This document shows positions 5,488-57,499 of a stretch of DNA of 64,000 nt, piece after piece. Position numbers and translations under genes: made by a program. Where the stretch lies: NCBI RefSeq assembly GCF_007754155.1, contig NZ_CP037423.1, positions 9,110,938-9,174,937 on the forward strand. Reading direction: 5' to 3'. Within the stretch, counting starts at the first letter, position 1. The number at the start of each line of letters is the position of its first letter. This DNA comes from Stieleria neptunia. GTDB taxonomy: Bacteria; Planctomycetota; Planctomycetia; Pirellulales; Pirellulaceae. The notes beneath the pieces were generated by a model that did no database searches, was not told the DNA's origin, and was given only the letters and a program-made list of their open reading frames with translations.

Positions 5488-6054
5488 ATGTCACTTTTGC
5501 TGCTCCTTGACGGCTACAACATCACCCAGCCGATCGCGCCGACTCGCAATCCCGACCCGCGTTGGTTGCAGCGGGATCGCAATGTGCTGCTGCGCGAGCT
5601 GACGAATCAACTCAGCGAGCCGGTTCGTCGAAAAACCTGTGTCGTCTTCGATGCCGCCAATCCGCCACGTGATCGTCCCAGCGAGTTCGTTCACCACGGG
5701 ATGAGCGTCCGTTTTGCGGTCGATTACCTGTCCGCAGACGATTTATTGGAAGAAATCATTCGGGCACATCACACGCCCAAACGGCTGATGGTCGTCTCCT
5801 CGGACCACCGAATCCAGATCGCGGCGCGGCGCCGCGGCGCCGCGCATTTCGACAGCGAACCCTGGATGGACGACCTGACAGACGGAAAAATCCATTTGGC
5901 GATCGACGTGGTGGCGAAATCCGGCGGGGCAGGGCAGGGCGGTCGGCCGCCGGCAGACCCGGAAAAAAACGCGGCGGCGGCCAAGAAACCCCGTATCCAG
6001 GACCCTTCGGAGGTGGAGCAGTGGATGCGGGAATTCGGTTTTGATCCGGATTAA
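5488..6054 (+). CDS. YacP-like NYN-domain (PIN-fold) RNase
   Basis: The N-terminus LLLLDGYNI carries the first acidic metal ligand of the NYN/PIN fold. VVFDAANPP and the SSDHRIQIAARRRGA segment supply further acidic positions typical of YacP/Rae1-type endoribonucleases. The 188-residue length fits. The C-terminus (GGAGQGGRPPADPEKN) is a low-complexity tail containing two overlapping GGGCAGGG octamers in DNA. It follows the FHA gene by 22 bases and may be co-transcribed. RNA targets are unknown. Confidence 0.82.
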   Translation: MSLLLLLDGYNITQPIAPTRNPDPRWLQRDRNVLLRELTNQLSEPVRRKTCVVFDAANPPRDRPSEFVHHGMSVRFAVDYLSADDLLEEIIRAHHTPKRLMVVSSDHRIQIAARRRGAAHFDSEPWMDDLTDGKIHLAIDVVAKSGGAGQGGRPPADPEKNAAAAKKPRIQDPSEVEQWMREFGFDPD

Positions 6055-6199
6055 TCGGCCTGGCAAGCCCCGGGCAACCCGCCTGCGACGCGATGCTCCT
6101 TCCGCACTCGACCGGCTCGACATAGAATCCCGGCTCAGATTGCCGACGCAGGCGTGCCGTCGGCGGCCCCACCCCCCCAACGTTACACCGATTCGTTCG

Positions 6200-7312
6200 A
6201 TGACAGCCACCGCGACCGCCCAACGAGCTTATAACTTTTCCGCCGGCCCCGCCGTCTTGCCCGTCTCGGTACTTGAGGAAGTACGCGACGAACTGGTTTG
6301 CCTGCCCGGTGCACGCAGTTCATTGCTCGAAATGAGCCACCGTGACAAAACCTTTGTCGACATCCTGCACGACGCCGAAAACAGCCTGCGATCGCTGCTG
6401 AACATCAGCGACGACTACGCCGTGCTGTTTCTGCAAGGCGGTGCGGCGCTTCAGTTCTCGATGATCCCCGCCAACCTGCTTCGCGATTCGGGTAAATCGG
6501 CGGCCTACATTCAAACGGGCACCTGGGGCAAGAAAGCGATCGCGGAAGCCAAGAAAGAAGGGCCGGTCGAGGTCGTCTACGACGCCTCGGCGTCGAATTT
6601 CAACCATGTCCCCGGCCCGCAGGACTACAGCGTCGCCGACGACGCGGCCTACCTGTATTACTGCAACAACGAAACGATCCAGGGTGTTCAATTCCCCACC
6701 GAACCCGAATGCCCCTCCGGCGTGCCGCTGGTTTGCGACGCATCGAGCGATTTTCTGTATCGCCCGGTCGACATCAACAAATACGGCTTGTTGTATGCTT
6801 GTGCCCAAAAGAACGCCGGCCCGGCCGGTGTGACCGTGGTGGTCATCCGCCGCGACCTGATCGACCGCGGCAGCGTTTCGCTTCCGGGTTACTTGAATTA
6901 CAAGAACCACGCCGACGCGGACTCCGAATGGAACACGCCGCCGACGTTCGCCATCTGGGTGCTGGGCAAAGTCGCCAAGTGGCTGCAAAACGACATCGGC
7001 GGGCTGGCGGCGATGGAAACGCTGAACCGCAAAAAAGCATCGCTGCTCTACGACGCGATCGACCAGTCGGGCGGCTATTACACCGGACACGCCAAACCGG
7101 AGTGCCGCTCGCTGATGAACGCGACCTTCACGCTGCCCAACGATGATCTGCAGTCGGCGTTTCTTGCCCAAGCGGCCGAGCGTGACTTGGTCAACCTGAA
7201 AGGGCACCGTAGCGTGGGCGGAATCCGTGCCAGCATCTACAACGCGATGCCGATCGAAGGCGTGCAATCGCTGGCAAGCTTCATGACCGATTTCGCATCC
7301 AAAAACGCGTGA
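6200..7312 (+). CDS. serC: phosphoserine aminotransferase
   Basis: PLP-dependent transamination of 3-phosphohydroxypyruvate to phosphoserine. The N-terminal signature YNFSAGPAVLP and the lysine-containing segment YACAQKNAGPAGVTVV (Schiff-base lysine) are clear. The ATG at 6200 (MTATATAQRAYNF) places the signature at the normal position; the frame is open upstream to 6041, but that extension is arginine-rich and overlaps the preceding gene. The product is 370 residues, normal for SerC. serA follows in the same direction, giving two consecutive serine-biosynthesis steps in one cluster. Confidence 0.95.
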   Translation: MTATATAQRAYNFSAGPAVLPVSVLEEVRDELVCLPGARSSLLEMSHRDKTFVDILHDAENSLRSLLNISDDYAVLFLQGGAALQFSMIPANLLRDSGKSAAYIQTGTWGKKAIAEAKKEGPVEVVYDASASNFNHVPGPQDYSVADDAAYLYYCNNETIQGVQFPTEPECPSGVPLVCDASSDFLYRPVDINKYGLLYACAQKNAGPAGVTVVVIRRDLIDRGSVSLPGYLNYKNHADADSEWNTPPTFAIWVLGKVAKWLQNDIGGLAAMETLNRKKASLLYDAIDQSGGYYTGHAKPECRSLMNATFTLPNDDLQSAFLAQAAERDLVNLKGHRSVGGIRASIYNAMPIEGVQSLASFMTDFASKNA

Positions 7313-7411
7313 TCTTCGCCGGACCGACGCGGCGGCTGCCTTCGGCGAGCCCCGCAAGGTCCTCGCACTCTCCCCGATCTTTCCTTTCCTCCAACCACAG
7401 CAACGCCAGAG

Positions 7412-8875: not shown

Positions 8876-10051
8876 GTGCACAAAACCATCATCCGGACCA
8901 TCGGCATTCCGTTGGTCACCTTGATTTCATCGACCATTCTGCCGTTCCATTCATCCGCGGCACCACCCTGGAAACGGCATACGATCGACGACACCCGGCG
9001 CGGTGCCGATGGGGTGCGACTGGGCGATTTCAACGGCGACGGGCTGATGGACGTCGTCACGGGCTGGGAAGAATCGGGATTGGTCCGGCTGTACCTTCAT
9101 CCCGGCACGACGAGCGCGGGCGCCCCCTGGCCGATGGCAACGATCGCCAAAGCCAAATCGCCCGAGGACGCCGTCCCGATGGATCTCGACGGTGACGGGC
9201 GACTGGACATCGTCAGTTGCCACGAAGGCAAACAACGCCAACTGCTGGTTCATTGGAATAACACGCCCGAGCCGCACTCGAATTCATCACAGTTGCTCCG
9301 ACAACAGAACTGGACGACCGATCGTTTCAAACAACTCGACGGCGTGATGTGGATGTTCGCCCTGCCGCTGGGCACGATCGACTCGCGGATCGCACTGGTC
9401 GCCGGGGCCAAGGGCCCCAAGGCCACGATCACGCTGTTGCTCGGGCCCGCGACCAACCCACGCGATCTGTCATCCTGGACCACCATTCGGCTGCGTGATG
9501 CGGGCTGGATCATGTCGCTGCGCGCCGTCGACATGGATCGCGATGGGGACCAAGACATCGTCTTTTCCGACCGTAAGGGCGACCGTCGTGTGGCGGCCTG
9601 GCTGGAACAACCCGACGATCCCGATCAGACGTGGACCGAACATGAGATCGCGGGGCAGGGCAGGGAAGTGATGTTCCTGACCGCCACCGCCGAGCGTTGT
9701 TTGATCAGCACGCGAGAGGGCGTTTCGCTGGATGGTCGACGGAGCGACAACGGCTGGATCGTGACGCCGCTGCCCAACCCGCCACAAATCAGCATGGGCA
9801 AAGCGATCGAAAGCTTTCCCGACGGTCAACTCGTGCTGACGGCCAACACGCATGCCAGTTCCGATCCCGACCGGCCCGGAATCTGGATCCGCGACGTTTC
9901 GGGAAACTGGTCCGCGATCGATCCGACGACGCGAGTGAAATTCGATCGGATGGAATTGATCGATCTCGATGGCGACGGCGACCTGGACGTGATGACCTGT
10001 GAAGAACGCCGAAACCTAGGCATCATCTGGTACGAGAATCCGGCGAATTGA
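8876..10051 (+). CDS. secreted FG-GAP/VCBS-repeat protein
   Basis: A signal peptide (hydrophobic residues 8-28 ending at SSAA) is followed by a beta-propeller-type protein built from FG-GAP repeats with calcium-loop motifs DFNGDGLMDVVTG, DLDGDGRLDIVS, DMDRDGDQDIVFS and DLDGDGDLDVMT. These repeats normally form extracellular integrin-like propellers. The start is GTG at 8876. Two overlapping GGGCAGGG octamers (9653-9665) encode an AGQGR segment that looks like a loop insertion. No enzymatic domain is visible; the role is probably extracellular binding. Confidence 0.85.
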   Translation: MHKTIIRTIGIPLVTLISSTILPFHSSAAPPWKRHTIDDTRRGADGVRLGDFNGDGLMDVVTGWEESGLVRLYLHPGTTSAGAPWPMATIAKAKSPEDAVPMDLDGDGRLDIVSCHEGKQRQLLVHWNNTPEPHSNSSQLLRQQNWTTDRFKQLDGVMWMFALPLGTIDSRIALVAGAKGPKATITLLLGPATNPRDLSSWTTIRLRDAGWIMSLRAVDMDRDGDQDIVFSDRKGDRRVAAWLEQPDDPDQTWTEHEIAGQGREVMFLTATAERCLISTREGVSLDGRRSDNGWIVTPLPNPPQISMGKAIESFPDGQLVLTANTHASSDPDRPGIWIRDVSGNWSAIDPTTRVKFDRMELIDLDGDGDLDVMTCEERRNLGIIWYENPAN

Positions 10052-10283
10052 AATCTCAGCGGAGCAGGGCAGGGGAGTTGGCAGAAAAATGGAGGGCAGA
10101 ACAATGAGCACTCAGCACTCAAATCATTTTCCTGTCTTCCATTTTTCTGCCATTCCCCGCCCCCTGTTTCACACCCTGTTTCACACCGTCCCCCGCAGAA
10201 TCGCCTAGACCCCGCGCTCGCGGATTCACTACTGTCGCCAGGAAAGTGTTTCCATCGTCCCCCTGCGTGCGACAGGTCTTGCA

Positions 10284-12404
10284 TTGTCCCCGATCCAACG
10301 AATTCGCCCTTGGTTGCTGCCGATCGGAGTGATGGCCTGTCTGGTCGTGATTCTGATGCCGTTGCCGACGGTGATCATGGATTTTTTGTTGGCCGGCAAC
10401 ATCGCGTTGGCGGTGGTGATTCTGTTGACGACGATTCACGTGGCGACGCCGCTGGAGTTCAGCGTGTTTCCGACGCTGCTGCTGGCGACAACGCTGTCCC
10501 GTTTGGTGCTGAACATTGCAACGACTCGGCTGATCTTGTCCGACGCGCCCACGGCCGGCGAAGACGCCGCGGGGGGCGTGATTCGCACCTTCGGTCAATT
10601 CGTCGCCGGCAATCAGATCGAAGTCGGTTTGGTGCTGTTTTTGATCTTGGTGGTGGTCCAGTTTGTGGTGATCACCAAGGGCGCGACACGGATCAGCGAA
10701 GTCGCCGCACGATTTGCGCTCGACGGCATGCCGGGACGCCAATCGGCAATCGACGCCGACTTGAATGCGGGAAACATTGACGCGGCGACGGCGGCGGGCA
10801 AACGCGACGACTTGATCGCCGAAGCCGACTTTTACGCCGCGATGGACGGTGCCGGAAAATTTGTCCGCGGCGATGCGGTTGCCGGGCTGGTGATCACCGC
10901 AATCAACATCATCGGCGGCCTGTATCTGGGCATCGTCGTCTCGGGCATGGGACTGGCCGATGCCGCCTCCGTGTTCACCAAACTGACCATCGGCGACGGG
11001 TTGGTCAGCCAAATCCCATCGCTGTTGATTTCGTTGTCGGCGGGCGTGCTGGTCACCCGCGGCGCCCGGCGAACGAATTTGTCCGACAACTTCGTGACAC
11101 AATTGTTGGGAAACTCCAAAGCCCTGGTGATCGCGGGCGGTTTTTTATTGGTGCTGGTCATCACGGGACTGCCGCCGATCCCTTTGATTTTGTTGGGCAG
11201 CGGTTGTGTGTTGATCGCCACCACGCTTGACCGCAACGCGAAACAACAGGCGGCCCAGGCGCAGCGTGAGCGTGAAACCGAAGCCCAAGCGGCCACGCCG
11301 ACCCAAAAACGCGTCGAAGACTTCTTGACGGTGGACCCGCTGGAAGTGGCGATCGGATTGGGGCTGCTACCGCTGGCCGACCCGATTCGCGGCGGCGATC
11401 TGATGCAACGCATCGCCAGTCTGCGAAATCAGATGGCCGCGGAGATCGGCATCGTGTTGCCCAAGGTGCGGGTACGCGACGACGCGACGCTCGGCCAACA
11501 GGAATACGAAATCCGATTGTTCGGTGACTTCGTCGCCCGCGGCGAGTTGCGTGTGGACCGACTGCTCGCCAGCGGTGACGGCAGAACGACCGGAAAACTG
11601 GACGGAGAAACGGTGCATGAATTCGGCGGCACGACGTCGATCTGGATTGATCCGGCGGGCCGCGAACAAGCGATGATCTACGGATTCAAGACACGGACGG
11701 CACCGGGCGTGCTGGCCGATCACTTGGAACAAGTCGCCCGCGCCCACGCCGACGAACTGCTCTCGCACGACGCCACCAAACACCTGTTGGATGAATTGCG
11801 GCAGGTGGCTCCGGCGCTGGTGGACGATTTGGTCCCGGCCCGGCTGTCGATCAATGACGTTCAAAAAGTCTTGCAGGGCCTGCTGCGTGAAGCGATCCCG
11901 ATTCGGCAATTGGGCATCATCTTGGAAGCGCTCGGTGACGCCGCGGCGCGTTCCAGTGACGCGTCCGAACAGATCGAAAGCGTCCGCCGACGTTTGGCCA
12001 GAACACTGTGCTCCCAACTCCGTGACGAACAACGCACGCTGCGAGTCGTCACGCTCGAATCGTCCGCCGCGGAACCGCTGCAACCGCTCAACGGGCCGGC
12101 GGGGCAGGGCGAGATCTGGGCGGATGGCCAGGGCGGCACCGGCGCGACGTCTCAATTGGAAATCCGGCACAACAAAACACAAGACGTCACTTGCGACGCG
12201 ATTCGTCAAGCCGTTAAGAACCTATCCAGTGAAGGTTACCCGCCGGTCCTGTTGGTCGGCCCACACCTTCGACGCCGCGTGAAACAGGTGACCGAAGAAG
12301 CCGGAATCTGGACGCACGTATTGTCCACCAACGAAATCACCACCGACACTCAGCTGGAAATTTCCTCGACGGTCGGCCGCCCCACATCCTCCGCCGCCGC
12401 TTAG
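10284..12404 (+). CDS. flhA: flagellar export apparatus protein FlhA
   Basis: Core inner-membrane component of the flagellar type III export gate. The N-terminal half has about eight membrane helices and the FlhA signature around GDGLVSQIPSLLISLSAG. The C-terminal half, from about residue 340, is the cytoplasmic nonameric-ring domain that docks export substrates. The 706-residue length is normal. The start is TTG at 10284, since no ATG lies at the right place. It heads a flhA-flhF-fliA cluster; rod and hook genes are not in the window. PAGQGEIW near residue 610 is encoded over a GGGCAGGG octamer. Confidence 0.95.
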   Translation: MSPIQRIRPWLLPIGVMACLVVILMPLPTVIMDFLLAGNIALAVVILLTTIHVATPLEFSVFPTLLLATTLSRLVLNIATTRLILSDAPTAGEDAAGGVIRTFGQFVAGNQIEVGLVLFLILVVVQFVVITKGATRISEVAARFALDGMPGRQSAIDADLNAGNIDAATAAGKRDDLIAEADFYAAMDGAGKFVRGDAVAGLVITAINIIGGLYLGIVVSGMGLADAASVFTKLTIGDGLVSQIPSLLISLSAGVLVTRGARRTNLSDNFVTQLLGNSKALVIAGGFLLVLVITGLPPIPLILLGSGCVLIATTLDRNAKQQAAQAQRERETEAQAATPTQKRVEDFLTVDPLEVAIGLGLLPLADPIRGGDLMQRIASLRNQMAAEIGIVLPKVRVRDDATLGQQEYEIRLFGDFVARGELRVDRLLASGDGRTTGKLDGETVHEFGGTTSIWIDPAGREQAMIYGFKTRTAPGVLADHLEQVARAHADELLSHDATKHLLDELRQVAPALVDDLVPARLSINDVQKVLQGLLREAIPIRQLGIILEALGDAAARSSDASEQIESVRRRLARTLCSQLRDEQRTLRVVTLESSAAEPLQPLNGPAGQGEIWADGQGGTGATSQLEIRHNKTQDVTCDAIRQAVKNLSSEGYPPVLLVGPHLRRRVKQVTEEAGIWTHVLSTNEITTDTQLEISSTVGRPTSSAAA

Positions 12405-12444: not shown

Positions 12445-13638
12445 ATGCAAGTCAAAATTTTCCGAGCCGCAAATTTGCAAGCTGCCCTGGAGGAGATCCG
12501 GGAACAGCTCGGGCCGAATGCATCCGTTCTGCGAACGCGACAGTGCCGTGACGGATGGATGGGTTGGCTGGGCCGAAGCTATGTCGAAGTGACCGCCAGC
12601 AGCGGCGACCAGCCGCGCGACGCGGCCGGCATGATGTCCGAAGACACGCATCGCTCCCTGGAACGCCTGGCGGGGATTCAACCTTCTCCCAACACACTTC
12701 CGATCGACTCGCGACAAACGCTGTCGGTCGTCGGCCGGATGCCGATCAGCCCCACCGGCTCGACGAGCCCTACCCGGCCGACCGGCGGGACCGGTCTGAA
12801 CCATTCCCGGTACTCCGACCCCACCGCCGACTATCGCACGGGCCTGATCTCGCTGGGCGTCTCCGAAGCCGTGGCCGACCGCTGGATCCGTTCGACCAGC
12901 GGCTTTGTGGCCAACCTGGGCGACCCGGTGGAACCGTCTTGGTTGGAACAGTTGCAACGCAGCGTGGCCCGAGAGATCCGTCTCAGCGGTGCGATCCAGC
13001 TCAATCCCGGCGAACGCCGCATCGTGGCACTGATCGGGCCGACCGGCGTCGGAAAAACCACGACGGTGGCGAAGCTTGCTGCCGGGTTCCGCATTCAATC
13101 CAAACGACGCGTCGGTCTGTTGACGATCGATACGTTCCGAATCGCCGCCGTCCAACAGCTCCAAGCCTACGCGCAAATCATGGACTTGCCGATGAGCGTG
13201 GTCGAATCGACCGACCAGATGCGCGGTGCGATTGACCAACTGGGCGATGTCGATTTGATCTTGATCGACACCGCCGGGCGGAGTCCCAAGGGGGACATGA
13301 GCATCGCCGGGCTGGCCGAGTTGTTGCGCACCGCCCAACCGGACGAAACCCACTTGGTCATCAGCGCGACGAGCACCGCCGCGGTGGTCCAATCCGCACT
13401 CGACGGATTCGCCGCCGCCAGGCCGACCGCCGCGATCCTCTCCAAACTGGACGAAACCCCTTACACCGCGGGCGTGCTGTCGGCGCTGACGTCCTCACGC
13501 GACCGCCTCGGGCTGCCGATCAGCTACGTCACCAACGGCCAGCATGTCCCCGATGACATCGCCGTCGCGACCGCCCAGCGGCTGACCGAACGTTTGATTC
13601 CCGCGCCCACCGGCGTGCGGCAGTTCGAAGCCGCCTGA
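12445..13638 (+). CDS. flhF: flagellar SRP-like GTPase FlhF
   Basis: SRP54-type GTPase that sets flagellar position and number. The N-terminus MQVKIFRAANLQAALEEI is typical FlhF. The NG domain carries the P-loop GPTGVGKTTTVAKLAAGF (about residue 197), DTFRIAAVQQLQAYA, and DTAGRSPKGD. The ATG at 12445 is preferred to the TTG one codon earlier. In most flagellar clusters the regulator FlhG/FleN follows; here fliA follows directly and no MinD-like gene is present. Confidence 0.94.
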   Translation: MQVKIFRAANLQAALEEIREQLGPNASVLRTRQCRDGWMGWLGRSYVEVTASSGDQPRDAAGMMSEDTHRSLERLAGIQPSPNTLPIDSRQTLSVVGRMPISPTGSTSPTRPTGGTGLNHSRYSDPTADYRTGLISLGVSEAVADRWIRSTSGFVANLGDPVEPSWLEQLQRSVAREIRLSGAIQLNPGERRIVALIGPTGVGKTTTVAKLAAGFRIQSKRRVGLLTIDTFRIAAVQQLQAYAQIMDLPMSVVESTDQMRGAIDQLGDVDLILIDTAGRSPKGDMSIAGLAELLRTAQPDETHLVISATSTAAVVQSALDGFAAARPTAAILSKLDETPYTAGVLSALTSSRDRLGLPISYVTNGQHVPDDIAVATAQRLTERLIPAPTGVRQFEAA

Positions 13639-14847: not shown

Positions 14848-16047
14848 GTGCGCGTCGCCCACATCATCACTCGCATGATCATCGGCGGCGCCCAGGAAAA
14901 CACGCTTTTCAATTGCCTGGACTTGATCGAGCATCATGACGACGAAGTGATGCTGATCACCGGGCCGTCGCTGGGGCCCGAAGGCGACTTGCTGCACCGC
15001 GCCGGTTTCTTCGCAGATCGAAGCAAACTGCGGGGCAGGGCAGGGGAGTTGCAGATCGAACTGTTGCCGATGTTTCGTCGCAACATCCATCCGCGACGCG
15101 ATTGGGCCGCCTCCCGGGCGATCCGAAAAACCATCCAAAACTTCCGTCCCGACGTCGTGCACACGCACAGTGCCAAAGGCGGACTGCTGGGACGCAAGGC
15201 CGCCTGGTCGCTCGGCGTGCCGGCCGTGATCCATACCGTTCACGGAGCGCCCTTTCACGATTTCCAGCCCCGACTGGCGCGCGAATTCTTCCGACGCTGC
15301 GAACGCTTCGCCGCGACCCGCTGCCACCACTTGATTTCCGTGGCCGATGCAATGACAGAACTGATGGTCCAAGCCGGCGTCGCACCGCGAGAAAAATTCA
15401 CGACCATCTACAGCGGGATGGACGTCGACCCGTTCCTCCGCGCCGACGAGCAGCGACAATCGGTGCGCGAAAAATACCAGATCGCGCCCGATCGCGTCGT
15501 GATCGGCAAACTCGCGCGACTGTTTCACCTCAAAGGCCACGACGACCTGATCACCGCCGCGGTCGAGGTGATCGCCCGATGCCCCCAGGCCCTGTTCCTG
15601 TTGGTCGGCGACGGCATCTTACGCGCCCCCCTGACCCGACGAATCGAATCGCTCGGCCTGGCCGAGCATTTCGTGTTCACCGGACTGGTTTCCCCCGCCG
15701 ACGTCCCCCCGCTGATCGGTGCGATGGACGTGCTCGTGCACACCTCGCTGCGTGAAGGCCTGGCCCGAGCATTGCCCCAAGCGTTGATCGCCGGAAAGCC
15801 CGCGGTCAGCTACGACGTCGATGGGGCTCGCGAGGTCGTGATCAGCGACGAAACCGGTTTCCTGATCCCGCCACGCGACACCGCCAGATTGGCGGATGCG
15901 TTGATCCGCCTGGTCGAAAATGCCCCACTTCGCAAAACGTTGGGCGGGGAAGGGCAGAGGCGATTCACCGAGCAGTTCCGCCACGAGACGATGACGCAGC
16001 AGGTTCGCGGCATCTACCAACGCGTTTTGGACCGCCGATCACCCTGA
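14848..16047 (+). CDS. GT4-family glycosyltransferase
   Basis: Two Rossmann-like domains of a GT-B glycosyltransferase: N-terminal RVAHIITRMIIGGAQENT, HTHSAKGGLLGRKAAW, and the C-terminal donor-binding region HTSLREGLARALPQALIAGKP. In retaining GT4 enzymes the last segment carries an E-x7-E pair; here the second position is glutamine, a possible change of chemistry or donor. Start is GTG at 14848. LRGRAGEL near residue 65 lies over two GGGCAGGG octamers. It probably acts on envelope polysaccharide or lipid; the substrate is unknown. It follows fliA by 72 bases, but a flagellar role (glycosylation) is only a guess. Confidence 0.85.
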   Translation: MRVAHIITRMIIGGAQENTLFNCLDLIEHHDDEVMLITGPSLGPEGDLLHRAGFFADRSKLRGRAGELQIELLPMFRRNIHPRRDWAASRAIRKTIQNFRPDVVHTHSAKGGLLGRKAAWSLGVPAVIHTVHGAPFHDFQPRLAREFFRRCERFAATRCHHLISVADAMTELMVQAGVAPREKFTTIYSGMDVDPFLRADEQRQSVREKYQIAPDRVVIGKLARLFHLKGHDDLITAAVEVIARCPQALFLLVGDGILRAPLTRRIESLGLAEHFVFTGLVSPADVPPLIGAMDVLVHTSLREGLARALPQALIAGKPAVSYDVDGAREVVISDETGFLIPPRDTARLADALIRLVENAPLRKTLGGEGQRRFTEQFRHETMTQQVRGIYQRVLDRRSP

Positions 16048-18419: not shown

Positions 18420-18887
18420 TCGCCGGTCGAAAAATCGACGCCCGCAAGCGACACCCAGAGCCCGAGCGCCCTGCGAAAGGAGTCACCCTCCCTGCCAGGG
18501 AGGGTCGAGCGCAGCGAGGGGAGGGTCGACCGGTCGTCGCTGAGCGATTCCGAGCCACTTAGACCCTCCCCGCTCCGAGCGCACACTCCTCCGCGCCCCT
18601 CCCAAAGGACGGCGATTGTAAAAGTGGCGGATTTGACCGTCGCGGAAGTCGCTAAGCCTTTCGCAGCGCCCGCCCTCTCTGGCGTTTGCTTGCTGCGCAA
18701 ACGCCGTCTCTCCCAGAGGGAGAGAATCTAAATCGGTTACAAAATCCTGCAGAAAACGAATCGGCGTCCCGAGGGAGAGAATCTATTTGGTTGCCAAAAG
18801 CTGCCGTTATACAATCGATATCCCGAGTCTACCGTAACGTCATTCATCGACCATCCGCTTCGCTCCGGCCGACCGGCAACACGACGT
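18420..18887. repeat. intergenic stretch with two dispersed repeat families
   Basis: 18481-18610 carries a CCCTGCCAGGGAGGG palindrome with GAGGGGAGGGTCG and an inverted AGACCCTCCCCGCTCC. 18655-18830 carries the arm GGCGTTTGC / GCAAACGCC flanked by CCCTCTC and GAGAGA. This second element recurs in inverted orientation at 56215-56335, including the outer words GGTTG-C-AAAGCTGCCGTT and CTTAGCG. No gene is seen. Confidence 0.8.
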
Positions 18888-19813: not shown

Positions 19814-19996
19814 TTAGAGTTCGCTTTCGGCGTCGATGATGGCTTCATCTTCCGCCTGAATCTCTGCGGCGACGTCGGTGTCAATCTCGGGCGGGGCAGG
19901 GCCGCCGCAGCCGATCATCGGCATCACCAAACACGCGATGAATACGATCAACGCAAGACGGGTACGTCCTGATTGAAGAGGAACGTTGTAGAACAT
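19814..19996 (-). CDS. small lipoprotein (60 residues)
   Basis: MFYNVPLQSG is followed by a hydrophobic stretch and the lipobox MPMIGC, then a short acidic tail rich in Glu and Asp. It lies just downstream of the DUF1559 gene. Small lipoproteins of this type often accompany DUF1559 genes in planctomycetes. Function is unknown. Confidence 0.7.
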   Translation of the reverse strand: MFYNVPLQSGRTRLALIVFIACLVMPMIGCGGPAPPEIDTDVAAEIQAEDEAIIDAESEL

Positions 19997-31110: not shown

Positions 31111-31167
31111 GCTCGCGCCGTGCCTCAGATTCCTTCCGCTGTTGTTAATCGATCCGACGGTTCGGCA

Positions 31168-31217: not shown

Positions 31218-31256
31218 AGCAAACGGCCACCGACAGAGTCAGTACGCAGCACTGAA

Positions 31257-31535: not shown

Positions 31536-31563
31536 ACGTCCGATAATCACTCTTATGTTGTAT
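31536..31563 (+). other. dif: dif-like XerC/XerD recombination site
   Basis: The layout is 11-6-11: left arm ACGTCCGATAA, spacer TCACTC, right arm TTATGTTGTAT. The right arm matches the E. coli XerD arm TTATGTTAAAT at 9 of 11 positions. The left arm matches the B. subtilis left arm ACTTCCTAGAA at 8 of 11 and ends in the inner ATAA of the E. coli XerC arm. It lies about 1.3 kb from the point where KOPS-like octamers change strand, as expected for a chromosome-dimer resolution site. No xer gene is nearby, which is normal for chromosomal dif. Confidence 0.6.
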
Positions 31564-31605
31564 TGCGACTGCAAAAAACCCCGTGTTTGAGCGATTTCGG
31601 CGATC

Positions 31606-32665: not shown

Positions 32666-32893
32666 CCGCTAACACGTTCTGCGCTAACGTCGTTGACATT
32701 GCACGCGGCCCACGATTGCGGCGATCCGACGGAACCGAGGGCAGGGCGGCGTCGCGGTGACTTATACGCAATCCATCCACCGCAAGCGAAGACCAATCGC
32801 AATCCAGTCTTGGCAGCGGACCACAAAAACCGGTATGACCCCAGTTCCCCATTTTCTCGACCGCCCTCCCCTGCCCCTCACCCATTTGCTAGC

Positions 32894-33680: not shown

Positions 33681-33829
33681 GGAGACAAGGAGACAAGGAG
33701 ACAAGGAGACAAGGAGACAAGGAGACAAGGAGACAAGGAGACAAGGAGAGAAGGGGAGTCGAGAGTACCCAGTTCCTCGAAAACTTGAAACTTGAAACTT
33801 GAAACTTGAAACTTGAAACTTGAAACTTG
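33681..33829. repeat. octamer array then heptamer array between convergent genes
   Basis: Eight perfect units of GGAGACAA plus one variant (33681-33752), a short linker, then seven units of AAACTTG (33781-33829). They fill nearly the whole gap between the stop codons of the YdjM-like gene and dtd. Confidence 0.95.
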
Positions 33830-33841
33830 AAACTCCCTCCT

Positions 33842-34279
33842 TCACCGTTCCAGCAACATCGTGACCGGACCGTCGTTGACCAACGACACTTTCATGTCCG
33901 CGGCGAAGACGCCGGTTTCGACACCAATCCCCTGCCCTTTCAGCTTCTCGACATACAGTTCGTACAACCGTTCGGCGATCGCCGGATCGGCGGCGTCGGT
34001 GAATGCCGGACGTCGCCCCTTGCGACAATCACCGTACAGTGTGAATTGGCTGACGGCCAAGACGCTGCCGCCGATATCGATCACCGACCGATTCATTTTT
34101 CCGGCATCGTCTTCGAACACGCGGAGCACGGCAGTCTTGTCTGCCATCCAGCTGACCACCGCTTCATCATCGGCGTGGCCGATTCCGACCAAGGCCAAAA
34201 ACCCTGCTTCGATTTGTCCGACGACTTCGCCTTCGACCGAAACACTCGCTTGACTGACCCGTTGTAACACCACTTTCAA
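33842..34279 (-). CDS. dtd: D-aminoacyl-tRNA deacylase
   Basis: Hydrolyses D-aminoacyl (and glycyl-tRNA-Ala) mischarging products. The N-terminus KVVLQRVSQASV, the catalytic SQFTLYGD segment and the C-terminal NDGPVTMLLE carrying the Gly-cisPro motif are all present. The length of 145 residues is exactly typical. Confidence 0.96.
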   Translation of the reverse strand: MKVVLQRVSQASVSVEGEVVGQIEAGFLALVGIGHADDEAVVSWMADKTAVLRVFEDDAGKMNRSVIDIGGSVLAVSQFTLYGDCRKGRRPAFTDAADPAIAERLYELYVEKLKGQGIGVETGVFAADMKVSLVNDGPVTMLLER

Positions 34280-40897: not shown

Positions 40898-41147
40898 GAA
40901 CAAATGCCTTTGCTGATGCTGTCTAGTGAAGGGTTGGGGTCGCCGGACGCGCCGGAGTTGGCCCGCCGGAATTGGGGGACCTATTCTACGCTCGCGACAT
41001 CGGCTTCGCTGGGGCGACCTTGATTGGATAACATGGAAACTGCAGCACATTGGACCAGCGCATCGTCGAGTTGCGAACCCCGCTTTGGTCAAGACTCCCC
41101 TGCCCTGCCCCGACCCGTCCCGCTCCCCGACTTTTCACGGCCGATCC

Positions 41148-42607: not shown

Positions 42608-43483
42608 ATGTCGCACCCCGCGCCTCCCCTGCCCTTCCCCGACCGCGCGACCGATGCCCACAAAGGCGACTTCGGACGCGTGCTGCTGATCGGCGGTTCG
42701 CGCGGCATGGCGGGCTCGATCGCGCTGTCATCGATGGCGGCACTGAAAACCGGTTCGGGACTGGTTTCGACGGCCATCCCGGATCGCTGTCTGGACACGG
42801 TCGCAGGCTTTCATCCCGGCATCATGACGATCCCGCTGGCCGATACCGATGACGGTCAGTTCCATTTGTCGGCGACACTGCCAGCGTTCGATTCGTTTGA
42901 TGCCGTCGGCTGTGGTCCGGGCATGCGGACCGGTCCTGGGTCGCTGCGGATCGTCGAATCGCTGTTGCAAAAAAACGAATGCCTGCGCGTGATGGACGCC
43001 GACGCGATCAACCTGATCTCCGAGCACCAACTATTGGACTCCCCTGCCCTGCCCCGCGATCAATCCACGCTGGTCCTGACGCCGCACCCGGGCGAACTGG
43101 CGCGATTGACCGGAGTGTCCGCCGGCGATCGCCCCGGCCAACTGGCCGCGGCGGAATCCCTGGTCGAAAAACACGGCCTGACGATCGTCGTCAAAGGCGG
43201 GCCAACCGTCGTGGTCGGTTGCGATGCAGACGACGGCAACGCGGTGCGGTCGGTCAACAACACCGGGAACCCGGGCATGGCCAGCGCCGGCAGCGGTGAC
43301 GTCTTGACCGGCGTCATCACCTCATTGTTGGGCCAACGGCTCTCGCCTTGGGACGCCGCACGGTTGGGCGTGTTTGTGCACGGCCTGGCCGGTGACACCG
43401 CCGCCGCGCATCACTCCCAGCCCGGGATGACCTGCGTGGAGTTGCTGCAAGCCCTCCCCGCCGCGATCGGATTGATCGAGTGA
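42608..43483 (+). CDS. nnrD: ADP-dependent NAD(P)H-hydrate dehydratase
   Basis: Repairs hydrated NAD(P)H. A ribokinase-fold YjeF C-terminal-type protein: KGDFGRVLLIGGSRGMAG, GCGPGMRT, VMDADAIN, LTPHPGELARLTG, and the nucleotide-binding GNPGMASAGSGDVLTGVI. Length is 291 residues; the epimerase (YjeF N-terminal) domain is absent, so NnrE must be separate. An LLDSPALPRDQ segment lies over two overlapping CCCTGCCC octamers and looks like a loop expansion. Confidence 0.94.
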   Translation: MSHPAPPLPFPDRATDAHKGDFGRVLLIGGSRGMAGSIALSSMAALKTGSGLVSTAIPDRCLDTVAGFHPGIMTIPLADTDDGQFHLSATLPAFDSFDAVGCGPGMRTGPGSLRIVESLLQKNECLRVMDADAINLISEHQLLDSPALPRDQSTLVLTPHPGELARLTGVSAGDRPGQLAAAESLVEKHGLTIVVKGGPTVVVGCDADDGNAVRSVNNTGNPGMASAGSGDVLTGVITSLLGQRLSPWDAARLGVFVHGLAGDTAAAHHSQPGMTCVELLQALPAAIGLIE

Positions 43484-43606: not shown

Positions 43607-43749
43607 ATCGATTCAATCAACCGCCCGCTCACGCCACGTGCTGACATGCGGCATCCCGGCGGGAAACGCGATCCGCCTTCTTCCCCATCGGCGCCACCAA
43701 AATCGGCTATCATTGCGGCTTCCCTCCCCTACTCTTCCCGATCCCTGCT

Positions 43750-47620: not shown

Positions 47621-47731
47621 GATTTCCGCCCCCACTCGCCCGATCGTAGACAATCGGCCAAACTACGCGTTTTGGCTCCCTTCACAGCGCAGCCTCTGCG
47701 GCTGCCGCCCCCCCCTGCCCTTTCGCAGCTC

Positions 47732-48676
47732 GTGACCGAAATCGTTTCGATTCCCGACATCACCCTGCCCGCGGTCGATGCTGCGCTGCAAGGCGGTGTC
47801 GTCAGCATCGGAAACTTCGACGGCGTGCACCTCGGCCACGCCGGCTTGCTGGGGCAGACCCGGCAACTGGCCGACCGTCTGGGCGGCCCCGCCATCGCGT
47901 GCTTGTTTGACCCCCATCCGATCGCAATCCTGCGTCCCGAGCTGGCCCCCAAGCGGTTGACCTCGGTCGAGGAACGGGCCCGCCGGATGACGAAGCTCGG
48001 CATCGACTTTTTGGTCGTTTGCCAAACGTCACCGGACCTATTGAATCTGTCGGCCGAACGGTTCTTCGACGCCCTGGTCCGAGACCATTTGAAATGCCGC
48101 GGCGTGGTCGAGGGCGAGAATTTTTGTTTCGGAAAAGACCGCCGCGGCGATGTCGACCTGCTGCGAACGCTGTGTCGCGACCAGGGCATCGAATTCCGCG
48201 TCGCCCAAATGGAATCGGCCGACGGCGCGATGATCAGCAGCACACGGATTCGCGACCTGCTCGCCGCAGGCAACGTCCGCGACGCCGCCGCGATGATGGC
48301 CACGCCACATTTGATTTGCGGCGTCGTCGCCCAGGGAGACCGGCGGGGCCGCACGCTCGGTTTCCCGACCGCCAACCTGGAACAGATCGACGTGGTCATC
48401 CCCACCGGCGGCGTCTATGCCGGGTTCGCAACGGTCGCAGCCGCCCGCCACCCGGCCGCGATCCACATCGGCGAAAGCCCGACATTCCAATCAGGCGATC
48501 CGACGAAGGTGGAAGTCCATCTGATCGGATTCAGCGGCGACCTGTACGGGCAAACGATCTCCGTCGAGCTGGTCGATCGCGTCCGTGGCGTCGTTCGCTT
48601 TGACTCCGTTGCGGCGATTGCCGACCAACTTCGAAAAGACATCCAATCCGCCCAGCAATTGCTGGAACCATCCTAA
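47732..48676 (+). CDS. ribF: bifunctional riboflavin kinase/FMN adenylyltransferase
   Basis: Converts riboflavin to FMN and FAD. The N-terminal adenylyltransferase domain shows SIGNFDGVHLGHAGLL, the FDPHP motif, and ISSTRIRDLLAAGNV. The C-terminal kinase domain shows GDRRGRTLGFPTANL and the late VEVHLIGFSGDLYGQ. GTG at 47732 is used because the frame upstream runs through repeats; this gives 314 residues, normal for the family. nrnA follows 15 bases later. Confidence 0.94.
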   Translation: MTEIVSIPDITLPAVDAALQGGVVSIGNFDGVHLGHAGLLGQTRQLADRLGGPAIACLFDPHPIAILRPELAPKRLTSVEERARRMTKLGIDFLVVCQTSPDLLNLSAERFFDALVRDHLKCRGVVEGENFCFGKDRRGDVDLLRTLCRDQGIEFRVAQMESADGAMISSTRIRDLLAAGNVRDAAAMMATPHLICGVVAQGDRRGRTLGFPTANLEQIDVVIPTGGVYAGFATVAAARHPAAIHIGESPTFQSGDPTKVEVHLIGFSGDLYGQTISVELVDRVRGVVRFDSVAAIADQLRKDIQSAQQLLEPS

Positions 48677-51244: not shown

Positions 51245-51246
51245 TA

Positions 51247-52405: not shown

Positions 52406-54430
52406 TTACTCCGCCATCAAGAATCCGGTCATCGTCCAACCGCTGTCGGTCTTTTCCCAGAACGCTCCGGCACTGGTGAAGAATTGCTTGATCGTTTCAA
52501 ACGGCGGCAACTTGCCGGCTTGAATCGGATCCGGCTCGCCATCCTGGTCATTCTCGACGATCCGACGGAGCAGATTGGCGATCAGCGAGTCGCTGTCCTT
52601 CAGCTCTCCGTTTCGCAGCAGTTCATAGCGTGCCCGCAGCGCGATGCTGGGGTGGACGACGCTGTCGTAGGTGACCTCGTTGCCCTGGTTCAAATCGTCG
52701 ATCGCCGTGACGATCGTTTTGGTGTTTTCGGTCGCCCCCAAACGGTCTCCCTCCGCACCGGACCGAACTCGCTTGCCAAGCTTGACCAGCAATTCGGAGT
52801 GGCTGGAAAACATCAGGTAGTCCCCATCGTCGGGCTGCTGGCCGGTGACGACCGCGATCGCCCAATGGTTCAGTAGCGGCGCGGTATCTTCGTCATCGAT
52901 GTTTTCGTCAAACCCCAAAGCCGCCAACTGGGCATCGATATCGTCACTGTCATTCTTGCCACGTTCGACGCGCCAAACATCAAACTCGGGCACCTCCAGC
53001 TTGATCGCGTCCGGTTCGACTTCCATCGCTTTCTGCACGACCTTGGCGACGACGTCTGCGTTCTTGATCCGCAGCGCGACCAACATCCGATCCGATTCCG
53101 GACCGGCCGGCATGGTGTTGTCGGTGATCAAAATCACCTCGTTTTCCAGGTTGGGCAAAAAGTCTCTCGCGATATCGATTTGCGGGCCTTCCGGATCATC
53201 GCGGATCCCTTCGATCATCGGCCGAAACAGATCTTCGCCCAACGCATCGTTGACCAACGACTCGGCAGCCCAAAAGGCCGATTCCAATTCCCAATTGAAT
53301 CGAAAGAACGCGCCGGAGTCTTCGGTCGGCCACGCGGGAATGGGCAGCCGGATCGAATTCTTGGCCTGTAACATCCGGGCGGCCTTGGTCAACTTTCCGG
53401 GGGCCAACACGACGCCGCAGTGCAGCACATCGAATCGCTCGCCGGCCACGACACCGACGCCACCGACCGCCTCGATCACGCCAAAGCCCTGTCGCTCGAG
53501 CAGCTCGATCACGTCCAGATCATCGCGGCGATCGTACTCGACGACCTCACGCAAAATCCGCCCCATCGCAAACGGCTCGGCATACCACTGCCAACAGACG
53601 GTCGCTTGTTTCTCGTTGGCCGAGTCAACCGCGGCGGTCGAATCGGTCAGCACTTGCTGGTAAGACGCTCGGTCGGAGAATGCTTTGGCGGGCGATTTTC
53701 CGGCAACCACGTCCAACACCCCTTGAACCACACTCTCGCGATCGGCCGCGATGAAACGCTCGTCGTTCCAAGTCAGCGCGATCTCGACAATTTTCAATTG
53801 CCCGGGCTTGGGCTTGGTGCGATAGACGCGAATCGTTTCGTCACCGTATTTGACGTCGGTCCGTACCGCGCCCCCGGCTTTCAATTCGGCATCGATCTTT
53901 TCCGCCGCCTGATCGGCTTCCTCTTTTCGGTCGCGGATGTCGGCAACGACGCACAGTGCATAAGGCCGACGCTTGTCATCGGTGAACGACAACCACGCCA
54001 GCGTGACTTCCCCCGATGCGATCTCGTACAGATCATCGGGCTTCAATCCGATCTTTCGATTCAGCGAATCAAAGTACGACCGGGCGCGTTCCCGTTGGTC
54101 ATCGAGAAACGGCTGCATCTCCGCCGAGGCAAACAGCAGTCCGATCTGCGTCCGCTCCCAGGCGTCGCAAAACGACGGCAGCTCGGGAATTCGGACGATA
54201 CCGGCGGTGGATTCGGGCAACAGATCAACCGCGGGCAAATAGTCGCCTGCGATCGCCTGCCCCTGCCCGTCTCCCTGCTCGTCTCCCTGCTCGACTTCGA
54301 CCTGGGGCGATTCCGCCTCCTGCTCGAGCTGCACCGGTTGCGCAGCACAAGCCAAATGGGCCAGGGACAACAGGGCGACGCCACACAGGACTGCCGCCGA
54401 CGATCGGATCAAAGGAAGACCAACTCTCAT
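52406..54430 (-). CDS. DUF3352-like secreted protein
   Basis: A signal peptide (VGLPLIRSSAAVLCGVALLSLAHLACA) is followed by a Gln/Glu/Gly-rich linker and a ~600-residue body: LPESTAGIVRIPELPSFCDAW, GLKPDDLYEIASGEVTLAW, VVADIRDRKEEADQAAEKI, and a repeat of similar pattern from about residue 300. These fit planctomycete DUF3352-type proteins of unknown function. ATG at 54430 is chosen because it begins the signal peptide. The linker coding QGDEQGDGQGQ overlaps a CCCTGCCC octamer. It diverges from purB. Confidence 0.65.
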   Translation of the reverse strand: MRVGLPLIRSSAAVLCGVALLSLAHLACAAQPVQLEQEAESPQVEVEQGDEQGDGQGQAIAGDYLPAVDLLPESTAGIVRIPELPSFCDAWERTQIGLLFASAEMQPFLDDQRERARSYFDSLNRKIGLKPDDLYEIASGEVTLAWLSFTDDKRRPYALCVVADIRDRKEEADQAAEKIDAELKAGGAVRTDVKYGDETIRVYRTKPKPGQLKIVEIALTWNDERFIAADRESVVQGVLDVVAGKSPAKAFSDRASYQQVLTDSTAAVDSANEKQATVCWQWYAEPFAMGRILREVVEYDRRDDLDVIELLERQGFGVIEAVGGVGVVAGERFDVLHCGVVLAPGKLTKAARMLQAKNSIRLPIPAWPTEDSGAFFRFNWELESAFWAAESLVNDALGEDLFRPMIEGIRDDPEGPQIDIARDFLPNLENEVILITDNTMPAGPESDRMLVALRIKNADVVAKVVQKAMEVEPDAIKLEVPEFDVWRVERGKNDSDDIDAQLAALGFDENIDDEDTAPLLNHWAIAVVTGQQPDDGDYLMFSSHSELLVKLGKRVRSGAEGDRLGATENTKTIVTAIDDLNQGNEVTYDSVVHPSIALRARYELLRNGELKDSDSLIANLLRRIVENDQDGEPDPIQAGKLPPFETIKQFFTSAGAFWEKTDSGWTMTGFLMAE

Positions 54431-54703: not shown

Positions 54704-56152
54704 ATGACTCAATCCTCGTCCAATCCCGCCGAATCAACGTACCAAAACCCACTGATCGAACGCTATTCGTCTCGAGAAATGGCGACGCTTTGGGGCCCCA
54801 ACCGACGTTTTCAGACCTGGCGACGCCTCTGGATTGCCCTGGCAGAAAGCGAAAAAGAGCTCGGAATCGATATTTCTGACACGCAATTGGACCAACTCCG
54901 CGCGTTCGAGTCCAATCTAAATCTGGACGTGGCCCGGGAATACGAGCGGATTCGACGCCACGATGTGATGGCCCATGTCGAGGCCTACGGGGACCAGTGC
55001 CCCGACGCCAAAAAAATCATCCACCTGGGCGCCACCAGCTGTTTTATCACCGACAACGCCGACGTCATTTTGATCCGCGACGCCTTGCGATTGGTCGCCC
55101 GGCGTCTGGCCGCCACCATCGACACGATGGCCACCTTTGCCGCCCAGCACCGTGCCCTGCCCTGCCTCGGCTTCACCCACCTGCAACCCGCCCAGCCGAC
55201 CACGATCGGCAAACGGTGCTGCCTGTGGACCTATGATCTGGTCCTGGACCTGCTCGAAATCGAACACCGCCTCGACACGCTCTGCGCCCGCAGCGCCAAG
55301 GGAACCACCGGCACCCAAGCCAGCTTCCTGCAATTGTTCGGCGGCGATCACGAAAAAGTCCGCCAGCTGGAACGCCGCATCGCCGAGAAAATCGGGTTCG
55401 ACAAAACCTACGCCGTCACCGGGCAAACCTATCCTCGCAAAGTCGACGCGCAATTGCTGGACGCACTCAGCGGGATCGCCCAAAGCCTGCACAAGACGGC
55501 GACCGACATCCGGCTGTTGGCCAACCGCAAAGAAATCGAAGAGCCGATCGAAAAACAACAAATCGGTTCGTCGGCGATGCCCTACAAACGCAACCCGATG
55601 CGGAGCGAGCGGATTTGTGCCCTGACGCGGTTCGTGATGAGTCTTCAAAGCAGCCCGGCGATGACGGCCGCCACGCAATGGATGGAACGAACGCTCGACG
55701 ACAGCGCCAACCGCCGCCTGGTGATTCCCCAAGCCTTCTTGGCGATCGACGCGTCCTTGGTGCTGATGCAAAACATCGCCAGCGGGTTCGTCGTCTATCC
55801 CAAGACGATCGAGCACAACCTGGCCAAGGAACTGCCCTACATGGAAACCGAAAACATCATGATGCGGGCCGTCGAAGCCGGCGGCGATCGCCAAGACCTT
55901 CACGAGCGGATTCGGATCCACAGCCGCGAAGTCGCCCAACGCGTCAACGCCGAAGGCAAACCGAACGACATGATCGAGCGACTGAAAAACGACGACGCCT
56001 TCTCCGCCGTCTCCTTCGACACCGAAATCAACCCGCTCGATTTCGTCGGACGCGCCCCCGAACAAGTCGACGAGTTCATCGAACAAGAGATCAAACCGAT
56101 CCGCAGCCGCTACGCCGATCAGGAATCGCTGAGCGTGGAAGTCACGGTCTAA
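54704..56152 (+). CDS. purB: adenylosuccinate lyase
   Basis: Catalyses two fumarate-releasing steps in purine synthesis. The fumarase/aspartase-superfamily signature [29 protein letters not shown], and [15 protein letters not shown] are all present. Length is 482 residues, a normal size for the longer eukaryote-like PurB type. The start ATG at 54704 has no strong Shine-Dalgarno sequence. No neighbouring purine genes. Confidence 0.96.
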
Positions 56153-56214: not shown

Positions 56215-56335
56215 GGAACACCGATTGAACAACGGCAGCCTTTGACAACCGATTGAGTCTCTCTCCCTCTGGGAGAGACGGCGTTTGCGCAGCAAGCAAA
56301 CGCCAGAGAGGGCCGGCGCTACAAAAGTCTTAGCG
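56215..56335. repeat. GGCGTTTGC hairpin repeat, copy 2
   Basis: Inverted copy of the 18655-18830 element: GGCGTTTGC / GCAAACGCC arms with a GCAGCAA loop, CTCTCCCTCTGGGAGAGAC on one side and GAGAGGGCCGGCGCTAC on the other. It lies between purB and the convergent rpsU. Confidence 0.88.
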
Positions 56336-56413
56336 CCTACCGCTACGATCAAAACCTCGTTTAGATCTCACAGGCGCACGTCAACCATCGACGCGTAAAG
56401 CAATCGAGGAAGT

Positions 56414-56614
56414 TCAACGACGACGCATAGCCCTGATATGACGATTGCGGCGTTGTTTTACGCCCTTCGATTCATAGTAGTAGCGCTGACGATTTCGGTC
56501 GGCCATTCGGACATAGCGACCGGTGAGCAATCCAGAGCGTCGGCAAACGGTACGGAATCGACGAACGGCCTCTTGTATCGTCTCGCCATCGCGGACGACA
56601 ATCTTCACGGACAT
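56414..56614 (-). CDS. rpsU: 30S ribosomal protein bS21
   Basis: A small basic protein of 66 residues: VKIVVRDGETIQEAVRRFRT, CRRSGLLTGRYVRM, and a strongly basic C-terminus RNRHIRAMRRR. This matches bS21, which in bacteria helps 30S initiation near the anti-Shine-Dalgarno region. It is the last housekeeping gene before the accessory stretch. Confidence 0.93.
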   Translation of the reverse strand: MSVKIVVRDGETIQEAVRRFRTVCRRSGLLTGRYVRMADRNRQRYYYESKGVKQRRNRHIRAMRRR

Positions 56615-57499
56615 GAGGATGCGTCTCGATGGCTAACGCTATACCAGTTTTTTTGGAGAGATCAGTCGCAACCTATCAGCGATCACGTCGCACACGTATC
56701 TCTACGACGGCGTGAGCGAGACAGTCGCAATGGGGTGAAAGTTTGTGGATCGTGGCAACGGAGTGGCGAATCGCTTCGCGGTCAACCTCCGGTGGCTCCG
56801 ATTCAAATCACTCACTGGACTAACGAGACGGACGAGTGACTGGAAACCAACGCTTGTCAAACAACAGACCTTTGTCGACCTCGTTTGCCCAACGGACACG
56901 CAAGATTTTACCGACGCCGCCGGCGCAGTGTCCACCGTATCCCGGAGGGATCACAGCGAGTAGCCGGAGGTCAGCGCAGCGCCACCTCCGGGCCACCGCC
57001 CCCAAACCTCCCCTCGACCCCGGATGGGGTCGCAGCAAATCCCGGCACGCCGCCGAGCGACATGGCCTGCTGCACGGAAATCCCAGAGGCCAACCGCAAC
57101 ATCGGGAGCGATCACTGCGGGCAAACCGTTCTCTCAACCCACAGAACGCAGTCGGAAAGGTAGGAAAATTGAGGGTAGAAAAACGGGTGGCTGAAAGACG
57201 CGACAGCCGGCAAACACCGTGCACTCTTTTCCTACCCTCAATTTTCCTACCTCCCTCTCCAACCGATGCATCGCCCGCCGGTCGTCATCAATCTACCCGC
57301 TCCTCTTCGCGTTGAGGAAGTCGGCAAGCATGCAACGCAACCTCTCGCAAGGACGGGCTTCACGGCGCCAGTTCACGTCGCCCCCCTGCCCTTCGCAAAC
57401 CGTCCGCTCAATTCAACGGCGAGAATCACCAGGTTGCAGCGGGAGTTAAAACTAAACCCCAAAAGACATCAACTCCGCAACTCCGTGTGAATCGATTCC
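56615..57499. repeat. ~600-bp accessory repeat, copy A (partial), no gene seen
   Basis: From about 56935 it matches copies B-D: ATCCC-GGA-GGGAT hairpin, CCGGAGGTCAGCGCAGCGCC with ACCTCCGG arm, GACCCCGGATGGGGTC, and long inverted arms GGTAGGAAAATTGAGGGTAG (57159-57183) and its complement at 57227-57251. The first half seen in B-D (GATCCGCGCATGCGGAGG) is not recognisable. After the arms, CCGCTCCTCTTCGCGTTGAG is shared with copy C. Confidence 0.88.

Follow-up and report, generated by a model that had tools for sequence, protein, structure and literature searches.

Probable FtsK-orienting octamers converge on a dif site that very probably lies apart from the GC-skew terminus in the planctomycete Stieleria neptunia

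The window analyzed here, by which we mean the whole 64-kb stretch of DNA at positions 9,110,938-9,174,937 of the single 10,975,817-base contig (a closed chromosome) of Stieleria neptunia, contains a dense array of octamers that point from both sides toward a 28-bp sequence of the type of dif, the chromosome dimer resolution site. The octamers match GGGNAGGG, the consensus of the FtsK-orienting polar sequences (KOPS) of E. coli. S. neptunia Enr13 is described as a polar-budding planctomycete with a closed genome (PMC7378531). There are 35 GGGNAGGG octamers in the window, compared with a mean of 7.5 and a largest count of 16 in 100 dinucleotide-preserving shuffles. One form of the octamer, GGGCAGGG, occurs 388 times in the 10.98 Mb genome but 26 times in the 64-kb window, approximately 11 times the genome average.

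An original prediction, made from the letters of the window alone, had listed 32 of these octamers (12 plus, 15 minus and 5 exceptions) and proposed that they switch strand near 32.8 kb at a probable replication terminus. All 32 positions were recovered, to within ~15 bp, and three minus-strand octamers that had been overlooked, at 37,626, 38,252 and 43,452, were added. With positions numbered from the first base of the window, the octamers counted on the plus strand to the left of dif, all pointing toward it, are two overlapping copies of GGGCAGGG at 5927..5939, two overlapping copies at 9653..9665, single copies at 10067..10074 and, within the gene call for an FHIPEP-family protein, at 12102..12109, two overlapping copies at 15033..15045, the variants GGGAAGGG at 15947..15954 and GGGGAGGG at 18518..18525, and single copies at 19894..19901 and 26254..26261, the last being the final one before dif. 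To the right, the minus-strand octamers that point toward dif begin with an overlapping pair (GGGGAGGG and GGGCAGGG) at 32864..32876, and continue with 33930..33937, the added 37626..37633 and 38252..38259 (the latter GGGAAGGG), overlapping pairs at 41098..41110, 42627..42639 (GGGCAGGG and GGGAAGGG) and 43042..43054, the variant GGGGAGGG at both 43452..43459 (the third addition) and 43722..43729, and single copies at 47713..47720, 47763..47770, 54261..54268, 55155..55162 and 57384..57391. In the orientation test five octamers point away from dif: those on the minus strand at 4320..4327, 12768..12775 (GGGTAGGG) and 18564..18571 (GGGGAGGG), and those on the plus strand at 32739..32746, 1.2 kb to the right of dif, and at 62248..62255.

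The strand switch near 32.8 kb stands. The best single split lies between 32,739 and 32,864 and fits 31 of the 35 octamers, a fit reached by none of 20,000 label shuffles; when the count is centred on dif (31,536), 30 of the 35 point inward (binomial p ~1e-5). It had also been remarked that many copies lie inside coding sequence and encode GQG, GRAG or SPALP residues. These residues are present, and 31 of the 35 octamers fall inside gene calls (heuristic; 15 sense, 16 antisense), but four are intergenic. The proposed strand count over the complete genome gave even totals (502/519 for GGGNAGGG, 188/200 for GGGCAGGG); such totals would result from any convergent arrangement. Over-representation of the octamer is confined to the locality, and genome-wide the reversed GGGNAGGG motif is the commoner of the two (643/634 by strand).

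The best score of a dif matrix in the window falls on the plus-strand 28-mer at 31536..31563. It consists of an 11-bp XerC arm (31536-31546, ACGTCCGATAA), a 6-bp centre (31547-31552, TCACTC) and an 11-bp XerD arm (31553-31563, TTATGTTGTAT) that includes the TTATGTT core. By inspection the position is intergenic: the overlying frame at 31120-31590 has no Pfam match and looks like an artefact of 7-bp repeats. Arrays of such repeats at 31239-31507 (TCAGTAC x19, ACCCAAG x19.7) stop 29 bp before dif, and further arrays of 7-8 bp repeats are found to its right at 33681-33754 and 33781-33834.

The matrix was built from five bacterial dif sites and scanned over the switch intervals of 11 genomes, S. 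neptunia and relatives that are designated here by genome number. No match had come from scanning for a consensus based on the core of E. coli dif, and it was this looser matrix that located dif. In all 11 genomes the top match is of the same type, ACGTCCGATAA-6 bp-TTATGTTNNNT. In seven genomes (G009, G019, G022, G024, G027, G030 and G032) the nearest plus and minus octamers enclose this match, and in four (S. neptunia, G012, G023 and G038) it is off by one octamer, which places the orientation switch at dif to within one octamer. When the arm pattern was searched for in 48 genomes with up to two mismatches, it was found in every one (45 exact, three with one mismatch); the set includes S. neptunia, and 11 genomes match by construction as the source of the pattern, leaving 37 that are new. 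The reversed arm pattern matches in 2/48. Each of the 48 genomes has a single copy at 0-1 mismatch, with one additional two-mismatch match apiece in G017, G026 and G173. An alignment of 20 dif flanks is rough, half of them being in opposite orientation. A survey that predicted dif in 641 organisms reports failure for its one planctomycete genome (0/1; Kono et al. 2011; PMC3025954). Among the matches listed from the open-licence literature, there was no earlier report on planctomycete KOPS, dif, FtsK, oriC or parS. Separately, the dif arms occur in 41 stretches of IMG/VR contigs, where the centres vary and KOPS are scarce (in total 7 toward, 3 away), and these contigs are candidate phages that integrate via the host Xer recombinases.

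To identify polar motifs with no prior choice, every 8-mer was counted for its polarity to dif. GGGCAGGG ranks first of all 8-mers in G019, a member of another genus of the same family (72 toward, 3 away), first in five genomes of another family of the class, f18 (40/0), and first, with 45/4, in another five genomes from the order. In S. neptunia the 464 kb of contiguous sequence around the window contains 78 copies, with 15 pointing toward dif and 1 away within 20 kb, and 58 and 11, respectively, within 200 kb. There it ranks eighth, below seven 8-mers that occupy 26-58 bins of 2 kb. The four of these that were traced sit in a common repeat of >100 bp arranged in two blocks. For the repeat word GTACATTG, the 30 copies at 9.040-9.081 Mb are on the plus strand throughout and the 10 at 9.174-9.189 Mb on the minus strand throughout. 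A second guide motif was considered for the out-ranking 8-mers and set aside; they are presumed to be copies of a mobile or cassette-like repeat. The dispersed repeat spans G000:C1:9040189-9081041 and 9173795-9189306, from the end of the window onward, with copies often ~470 bp apart. Genes for XerD-like integrases lie in the plus-strand block at 9,049,057 and 9,075,795, and because of them cassette arrays are one guess for its nature.

The single-base variants GAGCAGGG, GGGGAGGG, GGGAAGGG, AGGCAGGG, GGGCGGGG and GGGTAGGG are clearly polar (from 75/16 down to 23/7), and most other single-base variants show little or no polarity. The polar set is close to the E. coli consensus GGGNAGGG. A tandem 13-mer, GGGCAGGGCAGGG, was present in 36 of 40 genomes searched, S. 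neptunia included. Of the 182 copies scored in 30 genomes, 175 point at dif: 84/91 in 8 closed genomes, and 91/91 in 22 drafts, where only copies on the dif contig were scored (91 of 173; in a further six drafts none of the 16 copies was listed there). Copies flank dif on both sides in 19 of the 30. S. neptunia itself has 14 copies, compared with 2 of a reversed control, and 13 of them are at 8.90-9.25 Mb, with 8 plus to the left and 5 minus to the right of dif; the fourteenth, at 3.95 Mb, counts as toward dif but is near the point opposite it. In the 21 genomes whose flanks were read, KOPS point at dif. Together, the dif scan of 11 genomes and the unbiased ranking strongly support the identification of the octamers as KOPS that point at dif, as the original prediction had in part proposed.

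What machinery might read these sites? S. neptunia encodes an FtsK with a gamma domain, and the solved FtsK gamma structures that this domain matches include 2VE8/2VE9. A XerD model finds its best match at 345-363 bits in all six genomes searched (cut-off 329.6), and a second Xer match, at 321-333 bits, in the same six, above the cut-off in two; the second is presumably XerC. The XerD model also matches in all 14 controls, above the cut-off in four. The S. neptunia genome as a whole has 36 XerD-like matches, and several groups among them have identical scores, which suggests integrase-bearing repeats. In Planctopirus limnophila, FtsZ is reported to be absent, and ftsI, ftsW and mreB can be deleted but ftsK cannot, making it essential (PMC6952346, PMC10632474). 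The DNA side of this essential ftsK function can now be tested.

The part of the original prediction that makes this region the replication terminus was not supported. Of the 32 bins of 2 kb in the window, 30 have negative GC skew; the other two, at 10-12 kb and 50-52 kb, have +0.035 and +0.006, and there is no switch at dif. Over 200-kb arms the skew is -0.045 to the left and -0.067 to the right of dif in S. neptunia, and +0.070 and +0.053 on either side of dif in G019. Third-position skew averaged over gene strands is ~-0.08 and -0.095 in S. neptunia, nearly all of it from plus-strand genes, and ~+0.12 and +0.11 in G019, where both gene strands are positive; intergenic skew likewise keeps its sign across dif in the two genomes. 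Strand composition therefore does not reverse at dif, as it would at a replication terminus. Short arms (4-42 kb) were read in 19 relatives: 12 keep one sign across dif, five go from plus to minus, G036 goes from minus to plus, and G038 has zero skew on one side. In Proteobacteria and Firmicutes, dif is reported to lie within 3% of the skew shift (PMC3025954).

A skew inversion far from the window, which the original prediction had named as evidence against itself, is what was found: in G019 and G147 the skew flips close to dnaA and again roughly halfway round the genome. Across 20 samples of G019 the skew is plus over 0.1-3.3 Mb and minus over 3.7-7.25 Mb, with one exception in each range (2.62 and 5.5 Mb, respectively), and the genome halves differ (p 0.002). 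In G147, of family f18, it is plus up to 0.38 of the genome and minus from 0.53, with dif at 0.333. The halves of the S. neptunia genome show no skew difference when split at dif (p 0.94). Of the 21 genomes with arms, nine were used for a sign test, namely the closed records that begin or end with dnaA. Among their 18 arms, the sign of the skew beside dif fits an origin at dnaA in 17, and dif as the terminus in 10; the remaining genomes are mixed in sign. Nor did the genome-wide leading-strand bias that had been expected appear away from dif. In 40 S. neptunia samples, assuming ori at dnaA and ter at 6 Mb, GGGCAGGG is found 13 times on the leading and 12 times on the lagging strand. In the G019 samples outside the dif zone, with ori at dnaA, it is once leading and 16 times lagging, yet 16 copies point toward dif and one away. 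Polarity goes with dif and not with the fork. The looser GGGNAGGG in G019 is less clean, giving 18 toward and 5 away between dif and the skew terminus, and 11/8 on the far arm. Leading-strand bias goes with the E. coli system; the working definition of KOPS used here is orientation to dif plus FtsK binding.

In S. neptunia dnaA-dnaN is at base 1 of the record, with dnaN after dnaA, and dnaA is first in the record of 11 of 14 genomes and last in one more, G153. The distance of dif from dnaA, as a percentage of the genome, is 8 in G019, 11 in G001, 14 in G003 and G012, 15 in G024, 17 in S. neptunia, 19 in G011, 26 in G057, 33 in G147, 37 in G030 and G075, and 39 in G153. These 12 genomes represent 8 genera, some in another order of the class according to kinship labels, and the length of G003 is rounded. 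Relaxed DnaA boxes clustered ~500 bp upstream of dnaA number three in G019, the densest among the loci examined, and two in S. neptunia, a number equalled by three other loci.

One genome, G001, accounts for all 7 misdirected 13-mers among the 182, six of them in a block at 1.087-1.134 Mb and the seventh at 9.282 Mb. The DNA of the block corresponds to the right dif flank of S. neptunia, 5.5-16.5 kb from dif, inverted and at 78-85% identity, and the right dif flank of G001 itself matches S. neptunia only to 2.1 kb. These matches indicate an inversion, or an assembly join, that breaks 2-5.5 kb from dif. The far end of this rearrangement is ~1.14 Mb beyond dnaA and dif is 1.09 Mb before it, a nearly symmetric arrangement about dnaA.

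The window is almost certainly an FtsK-KOPS/XerCD-dif polarity junction, with both dif and KOPS correctly identified, and dif very probably lies away from the skew terminus. That the skew reports true fork direction, and hence that the axes of segregation and replication are really apart, we consider probable. The explanation that best accounts for the whole, and which we judge likely, is a KOPS/dif junction at which the segregation terminus has been decoupled from the replication terminus. The octamers would be polar loading sites for FtsK, clustered about the dimer resolution site at 31,536-31,563. The FtsK gamma domain would bind GGGCAGGG, the hexameric motor would load facing dif, and DNA would be pumped from both sides until the sister dif sites meet at the division site, where FtsK would activate XerD and XerCD would resolve chromosome dimers. 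The motif, its density and polarity, the dif site, the genes and the lack of a skew switch at dif in S. neptunia and G019 were observed; the binding, the direction of pumping, the recombination and the reading of skew as fork direction are what we infer. Pumping from both sides would make dif the FtsK polarity junction and the last-segregated locus. Replication forks, with skew as the reporter of their direction, would pass straight through dif from an origin at dnaA to a terminus about half a genome away, and the segregation axis (dif, and parABS where found) would have rotated against the replication axis in this lineage. For the Planctomycetia in general we lean slightly toward a two-axis arrangement, in which oriC is at dnaA with the terminus opposite, parABS is opposite dif, and KOPS run even against the forks; the last locus at the bud neck would be set by KOPS and dif rather than by replication timing, with FtsK as the transfer engine. 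A polarity junction away from the terminus is workable in principle, because junction loci in E. coli are reported to stay cohesive late (PMC2585057).

Could the convergence be a by-product, G-rich octamers following gene direction or strand skew and meeting by chance? The dominance of plus-strand genes to the left of dif in the window is what this would predict, but it is extremely improbable. In S. neptunia the counts toward and away from dif are 40/4 for sense, 16/7 for antisense and 10/1 for intergenic copies, and in G019 18/0, 17/2 and 37/1 (heuristic calls in both); a loss of polarity on controlling for gene strand was sought and not seen. Polarity flips at dif while GC skew does not, the reversed motif is rare around dif (18 compared with 78 forward in S. 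neptunia, 4 compared with 75 in G019) though commoner genome-wide, and the direction is the same in 30 genomes, including the 19 with copies on both sides. Polar DNA motifs of other kinds exist, and a different polar process, such as G-quadruplex fork barriers or Chi-type hotspots with dif nearby by coincidence, is helped by the general expectation that tandem copies of GGGCAGGGCAGGG could form G-quadruplexes. It is nevertheless very unlikely, since the switch occurs at or beside dif in genus after genus, polarity in G019 extends over Mb distances relative to dif and not to the fork, and the octamer agrees with the KOPS consensus of E. coli (PMC2680272), the variants GAGCAGGG and GGGNAGGG being polar too.

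The more serious alternative accepts KOPS and dif and keeps a conventional layout, with oriC opposite dif near parABS, replication ending at dif, and skew arising from a cause other than the fork. Several observations speak for it. The parS-like sites, a pair at 4.572-4.575 Mb in G019, next to genes for ParA and ParB, and three at 5.515-5.517 Mb in G030, are opposite dif, 45-47% of the genome away, and 16-37% from dnaA, positions that would be equally consistent with an origin of the conventional kind at these loci and a skew that misleads; the point at which KOPS polarity diverges in G019 falls within 3.3-5.1 Mb; and the short arms of 5 of the 19 relatives (G022, G027, G030, G037 and G173) are plus to the left and minus to the right of dif, like a terminus. 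Other observations weigh against the preferred KOPS/dif explanation with decoupled termini: skew in the 40 S. neptunia samples is faint (halves split at dnaA differ with p 0.047), KOPS polarity there is weak beyond the dif zone (15 toward, 10 away), the 20 kb around dnaA contain no strict DnaA box (TTATNCACA), all 14 genomes encode two DnaA-type proteins, and the FtsK gamma domain reads GYG-RAAKLID compared with GYN-RAARIIE or RMIE in E. coli and Pseudomonas, at positions that we take to be base-contacting. Even so, the conventional layout appears unlikely. The skew switches at dnaA and near mid-genome, neither at dif nor opposite it (G019, G147), it is still seen in intergenic DNA and when third positions are averaged across the two gene strands, dnaA-dnaN is located at a skew switch, and the G001 inversion is nearly symmetric about dnaA (~1.09 and 1.14 Mb). 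Decoupled axes are preferred on these grounds.

Further details concern the parS search and the second DnaA-type protein. With up to one mismatch, no parS was found in S. neptunia or in 8 of 12 relatives. The reversed parS control matched in 2 of 13 genomes, and for this reason single parS hits carry little meaning; those in G153 (two, not opposite dif) and G075 (one, opposite dif) were given no weight. Neither ParA nor ParB is among the 15 ORFs listed within 11 kb around the G030 sites. A DUF1015 gene is at or near the parS-like sites in both G019 and G030. The second DnaA-type protein, present in 14/14 genomes, is longer and has the DnaA C-terminal domain; the S. neptunia copy is at G000:C1:4771600-4771800.

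The SpoIIIE recognition sequence (SRS) octamer of Bacillus subtilis is GAGAAGGG. It differs from the planctomycete KOPS, being another octamer and following the replichores; what the B. subtilis SpoIIIE/SftA system shares is an FtsK-family motor guided by polar octamers, which follow the leading strand and change orientation at dif (PMC2680272). With the FtsK-KOPS/XerCD-dif system of E. coli the planctomycete system has in common GGGNAGGG directed toward dif from both sides, a dif of 11+6+11 bp, the FtsK gamma domain and Xer recombinases. E. coli KOPS occupy the leading strand and change orientation at dif (PMC2680272), and GGGNAGGG is reported to be evenly dense there, at one per ~12 kb, inside and outside the FtsK zone (PMC3140498). 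In S. neptunia, unlike in E. coli, GGGCAGGG is ~11 times denser in the window than in the genome, dif is mid-replichore as judged by skew, distant KOPS in G019 are on the lagging strand, and FtsZ is, according to the literature, missing from Planctomycetes. The decoupling is reminiscent of E. coli inversions ending at dif, which part the KOPS junction from the point opposite oriC, and in which junction loci are reported to be cohesive late whatever their replication time (PMC2585057). Those strains are engineered and growth-impaired, whereas the planctomycete dif is naturally far from the point opposite dnaA in the 12 genomes from 8 genera. If true, the separation of dif from the terminus breaks the rule that KOPS, dif and the GC-skew shift coincide, and would be a natural case in which chromosome segregation is parted from replication order.

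The window includes other features. A gene at 21726-30107 has a product of 2793 residues, a surface-type protein in which cadherin-like, choice-of-anchor I and dockerin domains are accompanied by a weak planctomycete extracellular signal. An FG-GAP repeat protein is encoded at 8876-10051 and has a below-cut-off match to the TcdB middle-domain profile, probably via its repeats. At 42133-42522 there is a 151-bp tandem repeat of 2.6 copies.

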